This document shows positions 47,392 to 56,398 of a stretch of DNA of 64,000 nt, one piece after another. The notes beneath the pieces are model-generated. The model saw nothing but the letters and a program-made list of their open reading frames with translations, ran no database searches and was not told the origin of the DNA. The translations under genes and the position numbers were made by a program. The first letter of the stretch is position 1, and each line of letters opens with the position of its first letter. The DNA lies in the NCBI RefSeq assembly GCF_000718785.1, contig NZ_JOCA01000015.1, positions 62,001-126,000 of the forward strand. The letters are read 5' to 3'. The stretch comes from Streptomyces sp. NRRL WC-3626 (GTDB lineage: Bacteria; Actinomycetota; Actinomycetes; Streptomycetales; Streptomycetaceae).

Positions 47392-49554
47392 TCACACCAG
47401 GGCGCGGGCGAGGTACGGGTTCGCCGTGGAGCGCAGGGGGAGGCCGAGGGAGCCGATGGCGACGGCCAGGGTCACGGCGTAGGAGTCCACCGCCCGCTTG
47501 ACGTTGGGCGCGTCCAGGCTCTCGCCGTTGACGATGCGGTCGAGGTCGATGTACGCCGAGCGGACGATCTCCAGGCGGCGGTACACCTGCCAGTCCTTGT
47601 GCCAGTCCCGGGTGTACGCGGCCGGCAGCCGGTCCTCCCAGCGGCGGAACATCCGGTCCCGGATCTCCGGCCGGGTCGGGGTGAGGTGCATATGGCGGAC
47701 CAGGTCGTGGAGGGGGTCGCCGATCAGGGCCATCTCCCAGTCGATGATGGTCAGCGCGTAGGAGCCGCCCCGGCGCACCAGGTTCCAGGGGTTGAGGTCG
47801 CCGTGCAGCAGGGACGGCTCGCGGTGGCTCACCTCGAACCGGGAGAGGATCTGGTCCAGGCGGCCCGCGTCCGGCAGCCCCAGCTGCCGGGCCAGCTGCT
47901 GCGACTTCTTGGGCAGCTCCCCGACCAGCAGTACGAGCTGGTCCTTCAGCCGGCGGTGGAAGCCGCGCTCCCCCGCCAGTGGGTCGAGGGGGTGGTAGTT
48001 CACCCCGGTCAGCGCGCAGAGCTGGTCGACGAGGCTGTCGGCCTCGTGCGGCAGCAGGCCGTTCACCGGATGGTTCGGCGAGTGGGCGATGTCGTGCGGG
48101 CCCACATAGGTGTGGACGGCGAAACGGTCGTTGGGGTAGCTCTCGCCCAGCGCCAGGGCGCGCGGTGCCGCGACCTCGACGGGTGTGCGCTCGATGGCGC
48201 GGAGCACGGCGTGCTCGCTGAGGAAGCTGCGCTCGCGCCGCCGGACGCCGGGCAGCCTGCGCCGTACGACGACGGGCCCCGCGTGGCCCGGGACCCGGAC
48301 CACGGTGTTGAGGTGCGCGGTGCCCTTGAACACCCGGTTCGCCGGGGCGGCGCCCTCCACCGCGAGGGCGTCCAGGACGGCGGACTCGGGGAAGTCGCCG
48401 GGCAGCGGCAGCCGCCGGTCCTGCTGCCAGCCGAAGGCCTGGTCGCGGTCGGGGCCGTCGTGATCGCGGCCCCGGCGGGACGCCAGCCAGCGGAACAGGG
48501 CCCGTTCGATCTCCCGCGCACCGGGCACGTTCCTGAGCCGCAGCGGCAGCGCGGCGGCCTCCAGCGCCCGTCGCACCTCCGCCGTCGCCTCGTCGAGGTT
48601 CTTCTGGCTGAACGCGTGCTCCAGGGACTGCGCCGCCCGCATCACGTCCGGGAAGACCGACTGGGCGCGCTCGAAGGCCAGGTAGTGCCGCAGGTCCTTC
48701 GCCAGTCCGCTGACCGCGGCGGGACGGATACCCCGCATGGCCTCCTCCCAGGCGTCGATCACCTCGGGCCACTGATGGGCCGGGTATCTCATGCGCACCA
48801 GGTGGGTCGCCAGGTCGTGCAGCGGGTCGCCGTAGGTCGCCAGCTCCCAGTCGACGCAGATCAGCGGCGGAGTACCGCCGTAGGAGACGATCACGTTGTC
48901 GCGGTGCAGGTCCGCGTGGAGCAGGCTGTACGGCCGCCTGGTCATGGCGGGCACCCGTTCGGCCAGCCGGACCAGGGCGTCCTCCGGGATGCCCAGCGCG
49001 GCGAACAGCCCGCCGAAGACGGCCCAGTTGGGCTGGCGGACCTGCCGGTCGGCCAGATGCGCCAGTGTCCGCAGGAAGCCCTGGCTGTCGGTGTCGTTGA
49101 AGGGCCAGCCGCGCGGCAGGGGAGGCAGGGCGCTGCGCCGCACATCGGCCATCTGCGCGAGCAGTCCGGCCAGTGCCCTGATGAGCAGCGTGTCCACGGG
49201 CTTTCCGTTGCCGCAGACGCTGGACAGCGGTACGCCCTCCACATAGCTGTGGAGGGCGAAGCCGTCGCCTTTGGCCAGGCACTGCGGCACATGGGGGAGG
49301 ACCCCTCTGACCGCGCCGAGGATCTCGTCCTCGTTCTCCCAGGTCCTGATCACCACCGGCAGCGCCTCGGCCCGGCGGATGCGTACCGTCACGGAGGTCC
49401 CCGCCTCACGTCCCAGCAGCCGGGCCACCGGCTCGGTCAGCGGTAGTACGTAGTTCTGGTTGTGGTGGCCGCTGTTGGCCGTCCCGTTCCGGGTGGCCTG
49501 TTCCATGAAGTCCTGGAGCCGGGCGCGGAACGCGGGGAGGGGTGGTGCGCCCAC
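47392..49554 (-). CDS. tandem APH/choline-kinase-like protein with two intact kinase domains
   Basis: A 720-aa protein containing two complete aminoglycoside-phosphotransferase-type kinase domains. Domain 1 (about residues 30-330) has H213-x-D215-x4-N220 (LLHADLHRDN) and Asp235 (VDWE). Domain 2 (about 410-700) has H584-x-D586-x4-N591 (LLHGDLNPWN) and Asp605 (IDWE). Normal family members have one domain of ~300 aa. Both keep catalytic residues, so two substrates or a two-step reaction are possible. GTG start at 49554 with ggag 8 nt upstream. It lies 210 bp downstream of GntR regulator 1. Confidence 0.82.
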   Translation of the reverse strand: MGAPPLPAFRARLQDFMEQATRNGTANSGHHNQNYVLPLTEPVARLLGREAGTSVTVRIRRAEALPVVIRTWENEDEILGAVRGVLPHVPQCLAKGDGFALHSYVEGVPLSSVCGNGKPVDTLLIRALAGLLAQMADVRRSALPPLPRGWPFNDTDSQGFLRTLAHLADRQVRQPNWAVFGGLFAALGIPEDALVRLAERVPAMTRRPYSLLHADLHRDNVIVSYGGTPPLICVDWELATYGDPLHDLATHLVRMRYPAHQWPEVIDAWEEAMRGIRPAAVSGLAKDLRHYLAFERAQSVFPDVMRAAQSLEHAFSQKNLDEATAEVRRALEAAALPLRLRNVPGAREIERALFRWLASRRGRDHDGPDRDQAFGWQQDRRLPLPGDFPESAVLDALAVEGAAPANRVFKGTAHLNTVVRVPGHAGPVVVRRRLPGVRRRERSFLSEHAVLRAIERTPVEVAAPRALALGESYPNDRFAVHTYVGPHDIAHSPNHPVNGLLPHEADSLVDQLCALTGVNYHPLDPLAGERGFHRRLKDQLVLLVGELPKKSQQLARQLGLPDAGRLDQILSRFEVSHREPSLLHGDLNPWNLVRRGGSYALTIIDWEMALIGDPLHDLVRHMHLTPTRPEIRDRMFRRWEDRLPAAYTRDWHKDWQVYRRLEIVRSAYIDLDRIVNGESLDAPNVKRAVDSYAVTLAVAIGSLGLPLRSTANPYLARALV

Positions 49555-49763: not shown

Positions 49764-50639
49764 TCACGCGGAGAGCAGATCCCAGACCGAGTCGAACCAC
49801 TGCCGCATGCTGTCCACGAAGACGGAGCCGGGAGCGGCCGGGTCGTCCGTCTTCTCGTGGTGGGTGAGGGTCGCCCCGAGGCCCAGGACGTCCAGGGCCG
49901 TGATCACCTCGTCCGCGTTCAGCTTGAGCGGCCGCTCGATGATCTCGTACATGCCGTGCAGGACCTCGACGGTGTTGAAGAGGTAGAGCTTGAAGGTGGG
50001 GGTGAGGGGGGTGTGCCGGATCCGGACGTCGACCGAGGGCACGAGACCCTCCGTCTGCAGGTCCCTCAGCGCCCCCAGCAGTGAGGTGGTGTGCCACTCG
50101 GTGATGGTGCGCAGCCGGTCGCGCATACGGGTGTCGTCCGGGTCGTCCTTGACCCGGGGGTAGGGCAGCGGCAGCGTCGAGTCGGGCAGGAGCATGCGGA
50201 GCGTGATGCGCTGGGGTGCGATGAAGCCGCCGCGGATGCGCTCCGCCTGCAGCCGGATGTGCATGTCGAGGGACTCGGACGTCAGCGTGTAGACGTCCAG
50301 GCTGACTTCGGGCTGCTCGAAGGCCTCGCTGATGAACGGGGCCAGGGTCACCGCGCCGCGCAGCCTCGTGGCCTTGGCCGCCGAGGACTGTATGCGCTGG
50401 GTCTTGACCACGCGGGAGCCGCTGCCCTGCCGCGACTCGATCCAGCCCTCGTCGGCCAGTTCCCGCAGGGCCCGCTGCACGGTGTCGCGGGAGACGCCCA
50501 GTTCCTCGGCCAGATCGCGCTGCGACGGCAGGAAGGAGCGCAGCGGATACGTGCCTCCCGCCATCCGGCCGCGCAGTTCGTCCGCGACCCGCTCGAACTC
50601 CCTGCCACCGCCGCCTTCGCCGGTCTGCTGTCCGTTCAT
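49764..50639 (-). CDS. GntR-type regulator 1 of a triplicated module
   Basis: A 291-aa regulator. GntR winged helix at the N-terminus (FERVADELRGRMAGGTYPLRSFLPSQRDLAEELGVSRDTVQRALRELADEGWI). The C-terminal ~200 aa are not a usual FCD or UTRA domain. They end with LTPTFKLYLFN and FVDSMRQWFDSVWDLL, a pattern shared with regulators 2 and 3 and reminiscent of non-catalytic phospholipase D-like sensor domains. Divergent from the 60-aa membrane protein at 50814. ATG at 50639 chosen; a TTG at 50687 is possible. Confidence 0.8.
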   Translation of the reverse strand: MNGQQTGEGGGGREFERVADELRGRMAGGTYPLRSFLPSQRDLAEELGVSRDTVQRALRELADEGWIESRQGSGSRVVKTQRIQSSAAKATRLRGAVTLAPFISEAFEQPEVSLDVYTLTSESLDMHIRLQAERIRGGFIAPQRITLRMLLPDSTLPLPYPRVKDDPDDTRMRDRLRTITEWHTTSLLGALRDLQTEGLVPSVDVRIRHTPLTPTFKLYLFNTVEVLHGMYEIIERPLKLNADEVITALDVLGLGATLTHHEKTDDPAAPGSVFVDSMRQWFDSVWDLLSA

Positions 50640-50813
50640 GCGCGGACCGTACCGCTTCCGGTCCGGCGGCAAACCAATATGCACCAACTGGACGGCACCA
50701 TTGGACGGTTGGTTAAGGGATCAACCTCGCCGGGAAGACCCCAGTCAGCACAACCAGTCCAATTGGACGGGAAGTTGAGACTTCTCTGAAAGTGGAAGGG
50801 AGATGGTCGGATC
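50640..50813. promoter_or_regulatory. operator region of module 1
   Basis: Three copies of TGGACGG lie at 50689, 50702 and 50764 (the last two as TTGGACGG). The last is part of a perfect 12-bp palindrome, GTCCAATTGGAC (50757-50768). GGTTGGTTAAGG at 50707 recalls the GTTGG half-sites of modules 2 and 3. Confidence 0.55.
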
Positions 50814-50996
50814 ATGCCCCTGTTCCACATGCTCATGGGACTCGGCGAGCTGTCCCTGGGCCTGCTCGCCCAGACGAGACTGGGCCCCCTCGGTGTGGCA
50901 CTCCTGTTCTTCCTCGGCGTGTGGATACGGGCACGCCGGGACGGCCCGGCCGTCGGGGCGGCGGTGGTGCTCACCGTGCTGATGATCCAGGCCTGA
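50814..50996 (+). CDS. 60-aa small membrane protein of module 1
   Basis: ATG at 50814 with ggaaggga upstream. Layout: N-terminal amphipathic/hydrophobic stretch (HMLMGLGELSLGLLA), hydrophobic helix LGPLGVALLFFLGVWI, basic loop RARRDGP, then a second helix AVGAAVVLTVLMIQA. The same order, helix-(R/K)AR-loop-helix, occurs in the proteins at 52797 and 54097. Too small for an enzyme; a peptide that acts in the membrane. Stops 2 bp before the HAD gene end. Confidence 0.72.
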   Translation: MPLFHMLMGLGELSLGLLAQTRLGPLGVALLFFLGVWIRARRDGPAVGAAVVLTVLMIQA

Positions 50997-50998
50997 GG

Positions 50999-51754
50999 TC
51001 AGTGCCGGACCAGGCGCAGGACCGGTTCCAGGGAGTCCACGACCGTTTCGGCGCCCGCGTCGTACAGCAGCTTGCCCTTGCGCTCGTTGCGCGCGTAGCC
51101 GAGGAACGGGACGCCGGCCGCCTGCGCGGCGAGCAGGTCCGTCGGGGCGTCGCCGATCATCAGGGCGTTCCCGGGGGCGGCACCGATGGCGTTGAGGGCC
51201 CGGTTGATGCAGTGGGGGTCGGGTTTGAGGTGGTTCAGCTCCTGTGTGCGCCCGTACACATGGGGGGCGAAGCAGGCGCCGAGGCCGCGGGAGGCGAGGT
51301 ACTCGCGCACGACCCGGGGGGAGTTGTTGGTGGTGATGGCCAGCCGGGTGCCCACCGCGGCCCAGGTGCGGATCAGCGGATCGGCGTAGGGGGTGGGCAT
51401 CGCCGAGACGGTGGCACGCGATTCCTCCTGGGTGAGCCGCTCCTCCAGCTCCGCGACCAGGTCGCTGCCGGGGTGCCGCCGGTCGACGGCGCGCAGGACC
51501 ACGTGCGGGTCCAGCAACTCGCGTTCGTCCTCCGTCAGCAGGCCGTGCAGGCCCCGGCTCTCCAGCCAGGTCGCCAGGTCGTTCGCCACCCGCTCCGCGG
51601 AATGGCCCGCGAACAGCCGGCAGATGGGGCCGTCGAAGTCCCACAGCACGACACGGGCGTCCTCGATCAGCCGCCGCAGCTCGTTCGGTTCCTCGTCGGT
51701 TCCGGTCCGCTTCCCGCCTGTCACCGCATCCGTCTGTTTCGTCTCAGGAGTCAC
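50999..51754 (-). CDS. HAD-superfamily phosphatase
   Basis: A 251-aa HAD hydrolase: motif I WDFDGPICRLF (D-x-D nucleophile), motif II TTNNSPR, Lys in LKPDP, motif IV GDAPTDLLAA. Resembles phosphoglycolate phosphatase/beta-phosphoglucomutase members. The GTG start shares a base with the TAG stop of regulator 2 (TAGTG at 51756-51752), so translation is coupled. A phosphatase close to a double kinase suggests a common phosphorylated metabolite, but that is inference. Confidence 0.82.
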   Translation of the reverse strand: MTPETKQTDAVTGGKRTGTDEEPNELRRLIEDARVVLWDFDGPICRLFAGHSAERVANDLATWLESRGLHGLLTEDERELLDPHVVLRAVDRRHPGSDLVAELEERLTQEESRATVSAMPTPYADPLIRTWAAVGTRLAITTNNSPRVVREYLASRGLGACFAPHVYGRTQELNHLKPDPHCINRALNAIGAAPGNALMIGDAPTDLLAAQAAGVPFLGYARNERKGKLLYDAGAETVVDSLEPVLRLVRH

Positions 51755-52632
51755 TAGGAGAGTGTCAGGTCCGACGTGATGGTTTCCCAGAGGGCGTCGA
51801 ACCACTTCTGGGATTCCTCCACGAACGCCTGCTCCCGCCGGCCGTCCCGCTTGACGAAGGAGAACAGGAGGGACTGGGAGCCCAGGGCGTCGTACATCTC
51901 CAGGGTCTGGCTCTCCCACTCCTCCTCGCGCCGGGTCAGCATGTAGTAGCCGATCAGCGCCTCCTCGCCGTTGAGCAGGTACAGCTTCACCGGCGGGGTG
52001 AAGGGAAGCGCCCGGAAGGAGACGCGTACGTCGATGCCGTGGGTGGCGCGCAGCGCGAGCAGGTTGTGGCGCAGCACCCGGGCCTGGGCGTTGCGCATGG
52101 ACAGCCAGCGCTCGTGGACGGGGTCGCCGTCCTTGTTCTCCCGGCCGTCGACCGGGACCGGGAAGGCCAGGTTGATCTCCCGGGACGGCAGCAGGAGGCG
52201 GACGTCGACCGACTCGGGGCGGATACGGCCCTCGTGGATGTGCCGGACGGGTTCGCTCAGTGCCAGCATCAGGCTCTCGGCGGTCAGGCAGACCGCGTCG
52301 ACGCGCACGTGGGCCGGGGCGAACGCCTCCGTGAGGCGTGGCGCGAGGCCCACCATCGTCGGCTGGGGCTCCTCCCGGGCGGGGGGCGGCGCGGCGATCC
52401 GGGGCGGGCTGCCCTTGCCGTGATTGCTGAGCAGGCCGTCCTCGCGGAGGGCGTGCAGGGCCTGGCGAACGGTGCCGCGCTCCACGCCGAACTCCTCGGC
52501 CAGCTCCGCCTGGGTGGGCAGCCGGTCGCCCGCCTTGAGCTCGCCGGTCCGGATGCGTTCCCGCAGGGTGTCGGCGATCTCCTGGGGAGAGACTCTGCTG
52601 CTGCCGTTCACTGCCACGTTCTCCTGGGTCAC
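51754..52632 (-). CDS. GntR-type regulator 2 of the triplicated module
   Basis: A 292-aa regulator, closely similar to regulator 3 over its whole length. HTH: ADTLRERIRTGELKAGDRLPTQAELAEEFGVERGTVRQAL. C-terminal hallmark: RVLRHNLLALRATHGIDVRV, FTPPVKLYLLNG, LEMYDALG and WFDALWETI. GTG at 52632 chosen because a TAGCTT box ends six bases upstream, the same arrangement as in regulator 3, implying a leaderless mRNA. GTGs at 52617 and 52611, after AGGAG, are alternatives. Coupled to the HAD phosphatase. Confidence 0.82.
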   Translation of the reverse strand: MTQENVAVNGSSRVSPQEIADTLRERIRTGELKAGDRLPTQAELAEEFGVERGTVRQALHALREDGLLSNHGKGSPPRIAAPPPAREEPQPTMVGLAPRLTEAFAPAHVRVDAVCLTAESLMLALSEPVRHIHEGRIRPESVDVRLLLPSREINLAFPVPVDGRENKDGDPVHERWLSMRNAQARVLRHNLLALRATHGIDVRVSFRALPFTPPVKLYLLNGEEALIGYYMLTRREEEWESQTLEMYDALGSQSLLFSFVKRDGRREQAFVEESQKWFDALWETITSDLTLS

Positions 52633-52696
52633 GACCAAAAGCTACAACTTTGATCCATCTGGCGGGAGTTGTTTGAAAGTTGTTTGTAAGTACTGG

Positions 52697-52735
52697 CCAA
52701 GTGGGGACAACTTAGAGACAGTTGGTTACCAACTC
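52697..52735. promoter_or_regulatory. conserved 39-bp operator block, module 2
   Basis: 31 of 39 positions are identical to the block at 53980-54018. It contains the dyad AGTTGG-TTA-CCAACT (52720-52734) and an upstream CCAAGTGG half-site. It lies between regulator 2 and its divergent membrane-protein gene, 62 bp before that ATG. Confidence 0.8.
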
Positions 52736-52796
52736 CAGCAAGTTGGTCGGCCGATGGTTCCGCCGCCCCGCCGCATGCCCGAAGGAGGAACGCCCC

Positions 52797-52985
52797 ATGC
52801 CCGTCCTCGCCCTCGTCTCCGCCGTCCTGGTCATCACCGTCGAACAGCTCGTCCAGTGGCAGTACGGCGCGGCCGGCATCGTCGGCCTGCTGCTGCTCAC
52901 CATAGGCATCAGGGCCAACCGGCCGGGGCTCAGCTCCGCCGGAGCCGTGCTGCTCGCCCTGCTGGTGGCGAGGCCGGCCCTGTGA
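52797..52985 (+). CDS. 62-aa small membrane protein of module 2
   Basis: ATG at 52797 with an excellent site gaaggaggaa. Sequence features: hydrophobic helix LALVSAVLVITVEQLVQW, Y-G-A-A-G turn, helix GIVGLLLLTIGIRAN, short loop, helix SSAGAVLLALLVARP. It shares EQLVQW-(Q/K)YG and TxGI(R/K)A with the module 3 protein. No known family. Stops 21 bp before the end of regulator 3. Confidence 0.75.
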   Translation: MPVLALVSAVLVITVEQLVQWQYGAAGIVGLLLLTIGIRANRPGLSSAGAVLLALLVARPAL

Positions 52986-53006
52986 GCGGCCGGCGCGCGG
53001 GAGACC

Positions 53007-53915
53007 TCAGCCGGTGAGCACCAGCTCCGAACTGATCGTCTCCCACAGCGCGTCGAACCACAGCCGGGACTGCTCCACGAACGTGGTGTCCCGCAGGCCC
53101 GGCCCCTGCTCGAAGGTGAACAGCATGGACCGGATGCCCTGGGCGTCGTACATCTCCAGGTACTCCTGGTCGATCTGGGCCTTGCTGCGCGCCAGCGTGT
53201 AGTAGGCGAACAGCGCCTCCGTGCCGTTGAGCAGGTACAGCTTCACCGGCGGGGTGAAGGGGAGCGCGCGGAAGGTGACCCGTACGTCGATGCCGTGGGT
53301 GGCGCGTAGCGCCAGCAGGTTGTGGCGCAGCACCTGCCCCTGGGCGTTGCGCTGGGCCAGCCACCGCTCGTGGACCGGCCCCTCGGTGCCGCCGGACCCC
53401 TCGACCGGCACCGGGAAGGCGAGGTCGATGTTCCGGCCGGGCAGCAGGACCCGCAGGTCGACCTTGGCCGGTTTCAGCCGCCCGGAGTGAATCTGCCGCA
53501 GCGGCTCCCCGATGGCGAGGGTGAGGGAGATGGAGGTCAGACAGACGGCGTCGATCTCGACGTGCTCGGCCCCGAAGGCGGCGGCGACCCTGGGCCCGAG
53601 GCCCACCGTGGTGGGCAGCGGAGGTGCGGCGGGGCCGGTCAGCGCCCTGCCGGGGTCGGCGGCGACGGTCGCCGGGGCGCCCTTGGAGACGTTCGTGAGC
53701 AGCCCCTCGGACTGCAGGATGCGCAGCGCCTGGCGCACCGCGGGGCGCTCCACACCGAATTCGGCGGCCAGCTGGGCCTGGGTGGGCATGCGCTGGCCCG
53801 GCCGCAGCACCCTGGTCCTGATCCGGGTGCGCAGCTCGTCGGCCACCTCGCGATGTGTCGGCTGTGGCCGCTGGGGCTTCGTCCGACCAGTGGCGGAGGC
53901 GTGTTCCGGGTCCAC
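53007..53915 (-). CDS. GntR-type regulator 3 of the triplicated module
   Basis: A 302-aa paralogue of regulator 2. HTH: ADELRTRIRTRVLRPGQRMPTQAQLAAEFGVERPAVRQAL. C-terminal domain shares ATHGIDVRVTFRALPF, VKLYLLNG, LEMYDAQG and WFDALWETIS. GTG at 53915 is preceded at six bases by TAGTGT, a leaderless-type promoter matching regulator 2; a TTG at 53921 is the alternative. Likely autoregulates and represses the divergent gene at 54097. Confidence 0.82.
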   Translation of the reverse strand: MDPEHASATGRTKPQRPQPTHREVADELRTRIRTRVLRPGQRMPTQAQLAAEFGVERPAVRQALRILQSEGLLTNVSKGAPATVAADPGRALTGPAAPPLPTTVGLGPRVAAAFGAEHVEIDAVCLTSISLTLAIGEPLRQIHSGRLKPAKVDLRVLLPGRNIDLAFPVPVEGSGGTEGPVHERWLAQRNAQGQVLRHNLLALRATHGIDVRVTFRALPFTPPVKLYLLNGTEALFAYYTLARSKAQIDQEYLEMYDAQGIRSMLFTFEQGPGLRDTTFVEQSRLWFDALWETISSELVLTG

Positions 53916-53979
53916 AGCCAAACACTACAACTTCCCGCCATCTTCGGGCAGTTCAGTGAAGGATGGTTATAGGACTCTT

Positions 53980-54018
53980 CCAAGTGGCTATAACTAAGGA
54001 GAAGTTGGCTACCAACTC
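53980..54018. promoter_or_regulatory. conserved 39-bp operator block, module 3
   Basis: Counterpart of 52697-52735, same length and order: CCAAGTGG, a TAACTAAGG stretch, then the dyad AGTTGG-CTA-CCAACT (54003-54017). It lies 79 bp before the membrane-protein ATG. Confidence 0.8.
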
Positions 54019-54096
54019 GCACAACCTGGTTGAGGCTCCTCAGGGGTTGGCCATCAGGAGGCGGGTGGGAGGCCGTGAACACCTAGGGGGACCGCC

Positions 54097-54282
54097 ATGC
54101 CGCTCATCGCCATCGTCCTCGCAGCGCTGGCCATCGGGTTCGAGCAACTCGTCCAGTGGAAGTACGGACCGATGGGAATCATCGCCTTCGTCGCCCTCAC
54201 CGTGGGCATCAAGGCACGCAACACCCTGGTCAGCGGCATCGGCGCGGTCATCCTCGTGATGCTGCTCGCCCAGTCCGGCTGA
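54097..54282 (+). CDS. 61-aa small membrane protein of module 3
   Basis: ATG at 54097 preceded by taggggga. Helix LIAIVLAALAIGFEQLVQW, then KYGPMG, helix IIAFVALTVGIKARN and C-terminal helix GIGAVILVMLLAQSG. About half of the positions match the module 2 protein, including FEQLVQW/VEQLVQW. Probably two or three membrane passes. Function unknown. Confidence 0.75.
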   Translation: MPLIAIVLAALAIGFEQLVQWKYGPMGIIAFVALTVGIKARNTLVSGIGAVILVMLLAQSG

Positions 54283-54451
54283 CAGCACACCGTACGGACC
54301 GCCGGCCGGACTCCCTTCCGGAGGGGAGCCGGGAGCCCTGCCGACGGGCACCACCCGCACAACAACCACAACTGAACAGCTCGCTACGGATGAGAACCCA
54401 CCCGTCGTCGACGGAAGGAGGCAGGCGGTACAGGCGCGACAGCGACCGCGC

Positions 54452-55765: not shown

Positions 55766-56398
55766 TCAGACGAGGAGGTCGTCGACCTGCGCCTCCCCGT
55801 CCCGGTACCGGCGCGCGATCTCCGCGCCGCACTCGTCCGCCGTACGCTGCAGCCGCTGCCGCCGCCGGGACACCTGCTGCTCGTACCGCACCAGCCGCCC
55901 CATCGCCGTGTTCAGCTCCCCGTCGGTGCGGGCGCCCAGGTCGGACAGCTCCACCTCGGCGAGCATCTCGGCCGCCAGCCGCCGGTACTCCTCGCTCTGC
56001 GGTGTCCCCAGCGTGACGTGCCGGGCGGAGGAGCGGTGCCGGGCCGGGGTGTCCCGCAGGATCTCCCCCAGCCGCTCGATCACGGACGCCTCCCCGCGCG
56101 CGACGACCGACGGCGTCTCCCGCGGCAGCCGCCGGGTCAGTTCCGCCCGCAGGATGTCGATCCGCCCCTGCAGCAGCCGCCGTACGTAACTCAGGTCGGT
56201 CTCGTCGCGCTGCGCGTCCCGGCGCACCGCCCGCAGTTCGGCCAGGCCGAGCACGAACAGGTCGTGCACCGCCCGGTCCTCGGGCAGCACCGGACTGTCC
56301 GTGCGCTGTGTGGGCGGCCGGCCGAACTCCCGCTCCCCGGTGCCCGACTGGGTCGACGCGACAGCCCCGCGCGGCTGTCCGATCCCCGGTGTGCTCAT
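55766..56398 (-). CDS. rsiG: RsiG, c-di-GMP-dependent anti-sigma factor for WhiG
   Basis: A 210-aa coiled-coil protein. The RsiG signature E-x3-S-x2-R-x3-Q-x3-D occurs twice: E66, S70, R73, Q77, D81 and E173, S177, R180, Q184, D188. Published work shows these motifs bind two intercalated c-di-GMP dimers, letting RsiG sequester the sporulation sigma factor WhiG until c-di-GMP falls. All ten motif residues are intact. ATG at 56398. whiG itself is not in the window. Confidence 0.93.
   Translation of the reverse strand: MSTPGIGQPRGAVASTQSGTGEREFGRPPTQRTDSPVLPEDRAVHDLFVLGLAELRAVRRDAQRDETDLSYVRRLLQGRIDILRAELTRRLPRETPSVVARGEASVIERLGEILRDTPARHRSSARHVTLGTPQSEEYRRLAAEMLAEVELSDLGARTDGELNTAMGRLVRYEQQVSRRRQRLQRTADECGAEIARRYRDGEAQVDDLLV

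Follow-up and report, generated by a model that had tools for sequence, protein, structure and literature searches.

Divergent GntR regulators and small membrane proteins at the Streptomyces dev locus and in a third, related module

Introduction

Why should three GntR-type regulators in a row each face a gene for a tiny membrane protein on the opposite strand? This question is raised by positions 49764-54282 of a 64,000-nucleotide (nt) stretch from the 7.9-Mb genome of Streptomyces sp. NRRL WC-3626 (contig NZ_JOCA01000015.1, positions 62,001 to 126,000), hereafter the window. Seven genes lie between these positions: R1 (-), S1 (+), a HAD hydrolase gene (-), R2 (-), S2 (+), R3 (-), and S3 (+), where R stands for a regulator and S for a small membrane protein. 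A preliminary description, made from the sequence alone, saw a plain two-gene unit repeated three times and knew of no described system with this layout. Such a system has in fact been published (PMC3187754): judged by sequence, modules 2 and 3 are the dev developmental locus (devA-devB/devC plus devE), and a third divergent paralogous module lies beside them.

The dev locus was described by Clark and Hoskisson (2011; PMC3187754). There, devA (SCO4190) is co-transcribed with devB, encoding a putative phosphatase, and is divergent from devC, which encodes "approximately 50 amino acids"; devE (SCO4188) is a duplicate of devA. The aerial hyphae of devA mutants are short and mis-septate, those of devE mutants long and unseptate, and devA is negatively autoregulated in S. 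coelicolor. A devC-like gene beside devE is reported to survive in no species but S. sviceus and S. coelicolor, and S. sviceus has distant extra copies, DevF/DevG. By that account, insight into the functions, regulons, and metabolites of devA and devE is still in its beginnings, and the origin of the gene is "difficult to ascertain."

Results

Modules 2 and 3 correspond to dev

To assign the genes, we relied on the promoter of SCO4189, for which a table row in PMC8346170 gives dependence on SigF/H/N in a two-plasmid assay in E. coli. The exact 44-nt promoter occurs in four records of the genome collection, always between DevA and a DevC-type small protein. In these records DevA is 75-77% identical to R2 and the small protein 79-81% identical to S2, and orthologs of the HAD protein, DevE, and S3 adjoin. 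From this placement and these neighbors, R2 (51754-52638, -; start possibly at 52632; PF00392, E 2.3e-18) is the ortholog of DevA, the HAD hydrolase (about 50999-51754, -; PF00702, E 2.4e-17) is DevB, S2 (52797-52985, +; 62 amino acids [aa]) is DevC of the SCO4189 type, and R3 (53007-53921, -; 304 aa, or 302 aa from a later start; PF00392, E 2e-17) is the ortholog of DevE. S3 (54097-54282, +; 61 aa) is of the SCO4187 type by position. SCO4187 is given as a putative membrane protein of 6268 Da, with a lower transcript level in a bldA mutant (PMC2000904).

Module 2 has the features of the DevA subfamily, namely a GntR helix-turn-helix (HTH) with a non-UTRA, non-FCD C terminus, a devB-type HAD gene immediately 3' of it, and a divergent devC preceded by a promoter of the SCO4189 type. 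Genes, order, and orientation of modules 2 and 3 are identical to those in PMC3187754, and DevA and DevE are about 61% identical here versus 57-58% there. The window differs from that account in module 1 (R1, S1, and their own palindrome), for which no counterpart with a small gene is described, and our survey differs in that a devC-like gene faces DevE in 28 of 59 modules rather than in two species.

Coordinates and PF00392 matches (E 2e-17 to 6e-19) confirmed the described layout, in which every one of the three GntR-type regulators faces a divergent membrane open reading frame (ORF) of 60-62 aa. The repeat is not a plain triple one, however, because modules 1 and 2 are separated by the HAD gene, which the preliminary description omitted. 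As read from the sequence, the HAD gene starts within the R2 stop codon, which makes translational coupling of the two genes probable. Among the reported lengths of 291, 292, and 302 aa, the first holds for R1 and the others correspond to slightly later start codons. R1 is indeed a distant relative, about 30% identical to R2 or R3. The latter two are close paralogs that share WFDALWETI, but not to the last residue as had been stated, since the residues following this motif differ.

The small genes form one family that travels with the regulators

We surveyed 106 loci, made up of the window, 75 regions, and 30 search loci; every Streptomyces genome with the regulators' C-terminal domain (n=101) is represented, as are G334, G369, G352, and G050 and a second G402 region. 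The clade counts rest on 202 of the 228 regulator frames found, after removal of 14 two-helix proteins, of split frames and those at contig edges, and of frames containing X. S1-S3 (60, 62, and 61 aa) fall below every Pfam and NCBIfam cut-off. S3 has 343 protein relatives at E<=1e-3 (best 120 listed), and an iterated profile recovered 141 S copies in the 106 loci, 138 of them 54-64 aa long. In this genome the profile matches only S1 (50814-50996, +; E 2.8e-18), S2 (E 1.2e-26), and S3. Conservation of S is highest at codon position 2. The median ratio of nonsynonymous to synonymous substitution rates, calculated on sequences of the commonest length only (46/62, 20/28, 12/22, and 6/23), is 0.39 for the DevA class, 0.42 for DevE, 0.62 for the R1 clade, and 0.48 for a fourth class. 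By these comparative measures, the small genes are real and form one coding family. The model of S3 has three helices (residues 2-23, 25-39, and 43-60) with charged loops; its predicted local distance difference test score (pLDDT) is 77.6 and its predicted template modeling score (pTM) 0.45.

We then compared the occurrence of S and of the regulators. Across 150 Streptomyces genomes, the C-terminal domain is present in 101 and S in 84: 83 genomes have both, 18 a regulator only, 1 S only, and 48 neither (Fisher p 6e-23, a guide only, as kinship of the genomes is ignored). Co-occurrence above chance and conservation of the small ORF, both named as checks in the preliminary description, were thus found. 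The pairing is one-sided: a divergent S was found at 135 of 202 regulators and no recognizable S (profile E<=1e-4) at 67. By clade, S faces 62/65 DevA (one, in L121, at 634 base pairs [bp]), 28/59 DevE, 22/31 R1-clade, 23/33 other, and 0/14 distant-clade regulators. Opposite the L159 regulator, scored as lacking S, stands a hydrophobic ORF that could be a divergent S; L087 and L092 have weaker candidates, so some such scores outside DevE may be misses. An ORF scan of S-less DevE modules gave no hydrophobic candidate; what is left in their intergenic regions (e.g., L074, L082, and L086) may be a short RNA or autoregulation alone. For 126 of the 135 S proteins, the nearest S from another locus lies beside a regulator of the same class, which argues that modules were copied as units.

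The best 120 listed relatives of S3, and likewise of R3, are nearly all from Streptomyces where named. Outside the genus, four weak S matches (E 0.005-0.01) lay within long open frames and were not accepted. In viral contigs none of 23 pattern matches to S was confirmed, and PHROGs gave weak matches only for S3 and none for S1. One orphan S gene (L231:4355-4543) stands beside a GNAT gene in G477, where no DevA-type regulator was matched.

Promoters and palindromes lie at fixed distances

We next considered the intergenic regions between regulator and S. In module 2, a test for the SigF/H/N promoter form GTTT-N-GGGNAN was positive at 52682-52708 (+), where a SigB-type promoter, GTTTGT-N15-GGGGAC, precedes S2; its S. 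coelicolor counterpart is the SCO4189 promoter of PMC8346170. A predicted operator palindrome, AGTTGGTTACCAACT (52720-52734), starts 11 bp past the -10 element. Module 3 has the promoter candidate GTTATA-N14-GGCTAT (53966-53991, +) and, again from 11 bp past the -10, the predicted palindrome AGTTGGCTACCAACT (54003-54017). This arrangement is general. The SigB-type motif is present in 57/65 DevA intergenic regions (shuffle mean 2.7), and AGTTGGNNNCCAACT in 50/65 DevA (shuffle mean 0.0) and 58/59 DevE regions (shuffle mean 0.05). The gap from -10 to AGTTGGNNNCCAACT is exactly 11 bp in 44 of the 45 DevA regions and in all 56 DevE regions (of 59) that have both; in the latter, GTTATN-N14-GGNNAT takes the place of the strict SigB motif. 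The natural reading is that each regulator represses itself and its S through the predicted operator palindrome. The conserved, predicted operator palindromes at fixed distance from the promoter, together with inheritance of the modules as units, lend good support to the preliminary suggestion that every small protein has a divergent repressor of its own.

Module 1 is built on a different palindrome. R1 (49764-50639, -; 291 aa; PF00392, E 6e-19) falls in a separate clade (n=31 in the 106 loci). Ahead of S1 lie a candidate promoter of weak consensus, GTTA ... GGGAAG (50712-50737, +), and a candidate operator, the palindrome GTCCAATTGGAC (50757-50768). In the R1 clade, a relaxed promoter motif occurs in 27/31 intergenic regions (shuffle mean 2.1), the strict SigB motif in 0/31, and CCAATTGG in 25/31 (shuffle mean 0.15); 22/31 have both candidate -10 and CCAATTGG, the latter 19-23 bp past the former. 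The HAD gene, directly downstream of 62/65 DevA regulators, is downstream of 0/31 R1-clade regulators, and AGTTGGNNNCCAACT is likewise found in 0/31. R1/S1 is therefore a related module and not a copy of devA.

The regulators share a C-terminal domain of PLD-like appearance

Beyond the HTH, no Pfam family covers the remainder of R1-R3, and UTRA and FCD are absent among their Pfam matches; a loose Pfam scan of 24 C-terminal domains gave just one-member chance matches. At E<=1e-8, the domain occurs in this genome in R1-R3 only, and the further genome matches of R3 are confined to its residues 1-141, mostly the HTH. We searched a structure model of R3 (pLDDT 91.8) with Foldseek. Apart from GntR HTH chains, its top rows were vaccinia F13 and the nuclease SauUSI, with TrmBL2, MITD1, and phospholipase D chains at lower rank (E 3.6e-4 to 6e-3); these proteins are members of the phospholipase D (PLD) superfamily. 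A second look with VIA-align returned mostly HTH rows and so is silent on the C-terminal domain. The domain has an invariant K with an N four residues on (K-x4-N) and no His two residues before the K. We read this as resembling a dead form of the HKD motif, HxKx4D, whose catalytic version is absent from the domain. To go by the model, the C-terminal domain may be a non-catalytic PLD-like fold, resembling the TrmB-like and MITD1-like folds in its Foldseek matches, with K-x4-N in place of HxKx4D. Given this appearance and, above all, the pairing of DevA with the phosphatase gene devB, we infer that the domain senses a phosphorylated ligand.

Downstream of R1, on the same strand, lies a gene for a double APH phosphotransferase of 720 aa (47392-49554, -; PF01636 in two stretches), and such a gene is downstream of 27/31 R1-clade regulators.

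In sixteen proteins the DevA C-terminal domain follows two transmembrane helices in place of a GntR domain (e.g., L082:10399-11319, L084:171-1136, L117:7238-8308, L127:1290-2342, and L238:3051-4034). A DevB-like HAD gene adjoins the two-helix protein on the same strand in L084, L117, L127, and L238. Homology of S with these helices, as in a Rosetta-stone fusion, is not supported: the profile-comparison score of 7.8 is lower than those of the best among 20 column-permuted controls (11.9), the reversed helix alignment (9.8), and reversed S (13.2). PADLOC gave weak HTH-type matches for R3 and none for S3, the HAD protein, or three of the two-transmembrane proteins. The regulator matches in L156 (G469) and L150 (G482) are split over frames, which may mean decaying genes or sequencing errors.

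Some relatives of the regulators lie on conjugative elements

In a set of 394 genomes of the bacterial class, the C-terminal domain occurs in 44, which fall in 9 of 137 genera. At the 15 non-Streptomyces genomes with a match, a HAD gene adjoins 16/16 regulators and S is found at no locus. The distant Streptomyces clade is similar, with HAD downstream in 14/14 and S in 0/14; one of these HAD proteins was compared with DevB and shares 33% identity with it. A tree that takes the two-helix proteins with this domain as its root places the S-associated Streptomyces regulators (87) as sister to the non-Streptomyces and distant Streptomyces ones (24), with supports of 0.853 and 0.938.

We searched the surroundings for element markers (RepSA, FtsK/Tra, OB, integrase, Xis, and Spd). 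They were near 8/15 non-Streptomyces loci and, within Streptomyces, near 5/5 of the clade-2 loci covered, several of these being sources of queries; 7/15 non-Streptomyces loci had no marker within the 6-11 kb read. Several queries came from the clade-2 loci L228, L229, L271, L274, L275, L277, and L283 themselves, and the marker loci independent of the queries are L230, L234, L270, L276, L278, and L279. Of the 76 dev-region loci, the window included, a single one (L146, of the distant clade) has markers. In other genera, the regulator-HAD pair lacks S and in about half of the cases is visibly on pSAM2-type elements. These data suggest that the origin of dev lies in a regulator-phosphatase module shared with such elements. 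The idea that the dev clade arose from regulators of these elements was not adopted, as the tree gives sister clades and favors neither direction.

Discussion

The explanation we favor, at roughly an even chance, is that the modules are repressor switches on S, set against sporulation and stress sigma factors and relieved by a phosphorylated ligand, with S acting in the membrane. In early growth, DevA and DevE would hold off devC, the SCO4187-type gene, and themselves. Each regulator would bind its palindrome, which spans the beginning of the transcript from 11 bp past the -10, and probably further sites close to the regulator's own start. The DevC promoter would be read by sigma factors of stress and sporulation (SigF/H/N), and a phosphorylated ligand at the C-terminal domain may relieve repression. 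The level of this ligand might be set by the neighboring HAD phosphatase in the case of DevA, and perhaps by an APH-type enzyme in that of R1. The freed three-helix S would insert in the membrane and affect aerial growth or septation, and its mistimed expression could contribute to the phenotypes of devA and devE mutants. That S is seldom found without a regulator (1/84 genomes) fits a protein in need of restraint.

Several observations weigh against this explanation. The strict SigB motif was found in 0/59 DevE intergenic regions. S-less DevE modules keep the palindrome and the promoter motif (30/31 each), so DevE has work besides S. With neither gene present in 48/150 Streptomyces genomes, the system is dispensable. 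As for the ligand domain, the PLD-type Foldseek matches have a probability near 1, but template modeling scores of about 0.3 and root-mean-square deviations of 8-9 Å; no PLD profile matched any of the 24 C-terminal domains, and the dev regulators differ from TrmB-like and MITD1-like proteins in these respects and in the missing catalytic His. The double APH gene is also found <=1.5 kb downstream of 27/65 DevA regulators and may thus be a mere neighbor, which weakens its candidacy as the kinase partner of R1.

Instead of needing restraint, the S proteins could be ordinary, useful membrane proteins of sporulation or stress that the regulators only time, with the mutant phenotypes arising from devB or genes elsewhere. 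By description, S is like SmeA in its membrane location, its link with sporulation, and a length of about 60 aa; we know of no GntR partner of SmeA, and the S profile matches nothing in this genome apart from S1-S3. SmeA is a small membrane sporulation protein (cited in PMC7985256), and a useful role for S agrees with a promoter read by stress and sporulation sigma factors (PMC8346170) and with the lower SCO4187 transcript in a bldA mutant (PMC2000904). We nevertheless consider this somewhat unlikely, as a freely useful protein would not be expected to occur without the regulator in just 1 of 84 genomes. The same imbalance, set beside 18/101 regulator genomes without S, would suit a selfish or domesticated kil-kor module, in which unrepressed S does harm and the cost of losing the regulator helps to keep the pair. 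Plasmid transfer switches would be its closest analogs, and the sister clade on pSAM2-type elements lends it some weight. It is made quite improbable by the orphan S of G477, by the fixed chromosomal position beside a GNAT gene (53/59 DevE), and by element markers at only 1/76 loci, that one of the distant clade.

S might also be a passenger that drifted along while DevA, DevE, and R1 act mainly on themselves, devB, and genes elsewhere. Although the 67/202 regulators without recognizable S and the retained switch region of S-less DevE modules would follow from this, S is under purifying selection, is kept by 62/65 DevA modules, and has its own conserved promoter and ribosome-site region, so that we hold such drift to be very improbable. 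The probability that the small ORFs are chance open frames is close to nil: they are very short and carry no Pfam or NCBIfam family name, but chance would not produce the 343 relatives, the narrow length range of 138/141 copies, or the codon-position bias, nor do the published SCO4189 promoter (PMC8346170) and SCO4187 transcript change (PMC2000904) agree with it.

If the repressor-switch explanation holds, each regulator gains a single conserved candidate target and an operator predicted to the base, and the substrates of the neighboring phosphatase become a candidate ligand class; a sporulation switch is also tied to the control of conjugative elements. The literature we found has no report of the pairing as a general feature, of the geometry of the palindromes, of a third module that has a palindrome to itself, or of kin on conjugative elements; that search, with subscription journals mostly outside its scope, found no study of the small proteins.

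A further step, which we put forward as speculative and rather doubtful, is that a single regulator-phosphatase module gave rise to both the dev switch and the transfer switch of pSAM2-type elements, the divergent target being a transfer/replication operon on the elements and, in Streptomyces chromosomes, a 60-aa S protein that acts on aerial growth and septation once released from repression. The defects of devA and devE mutants would then largely reflect unrepressed DevC-family proteins, and in other actinomycetes the single-copy "ancestral devA" would in many cases be carried by an element and not be developmental. PMC8584621 gives the KorSA/pra switch of pSAM2-type actinomycete integrative and conjugative elements as SCO3932/SCO3933, with SCO3932 of the HutC/UTRA type. 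Like the dev regulators, KorSA is a GntR autorepressor with a divergent target and a site over the target's transcription start, and clade-2 relatives of the dev regulators occupy the same position on such elements. Unlike KorSA, R1-R3 have no UTRA match, and dev regions lack element markers.

Two minor features lie beyond the modules. An RsiG-like gene (55766-56356, -; PF22802, E 3.5e-30) stands within 1.5 kb of the dev cluster and fits a developmental neighborhood; RsiG is described as the c-di-GMP-dependent (anti-sigma) partner of WhiG. A CACAACCACAACT-like motif is repeated 3' of DevE promoters, at about 54350-54380 in the window and at several other loci.

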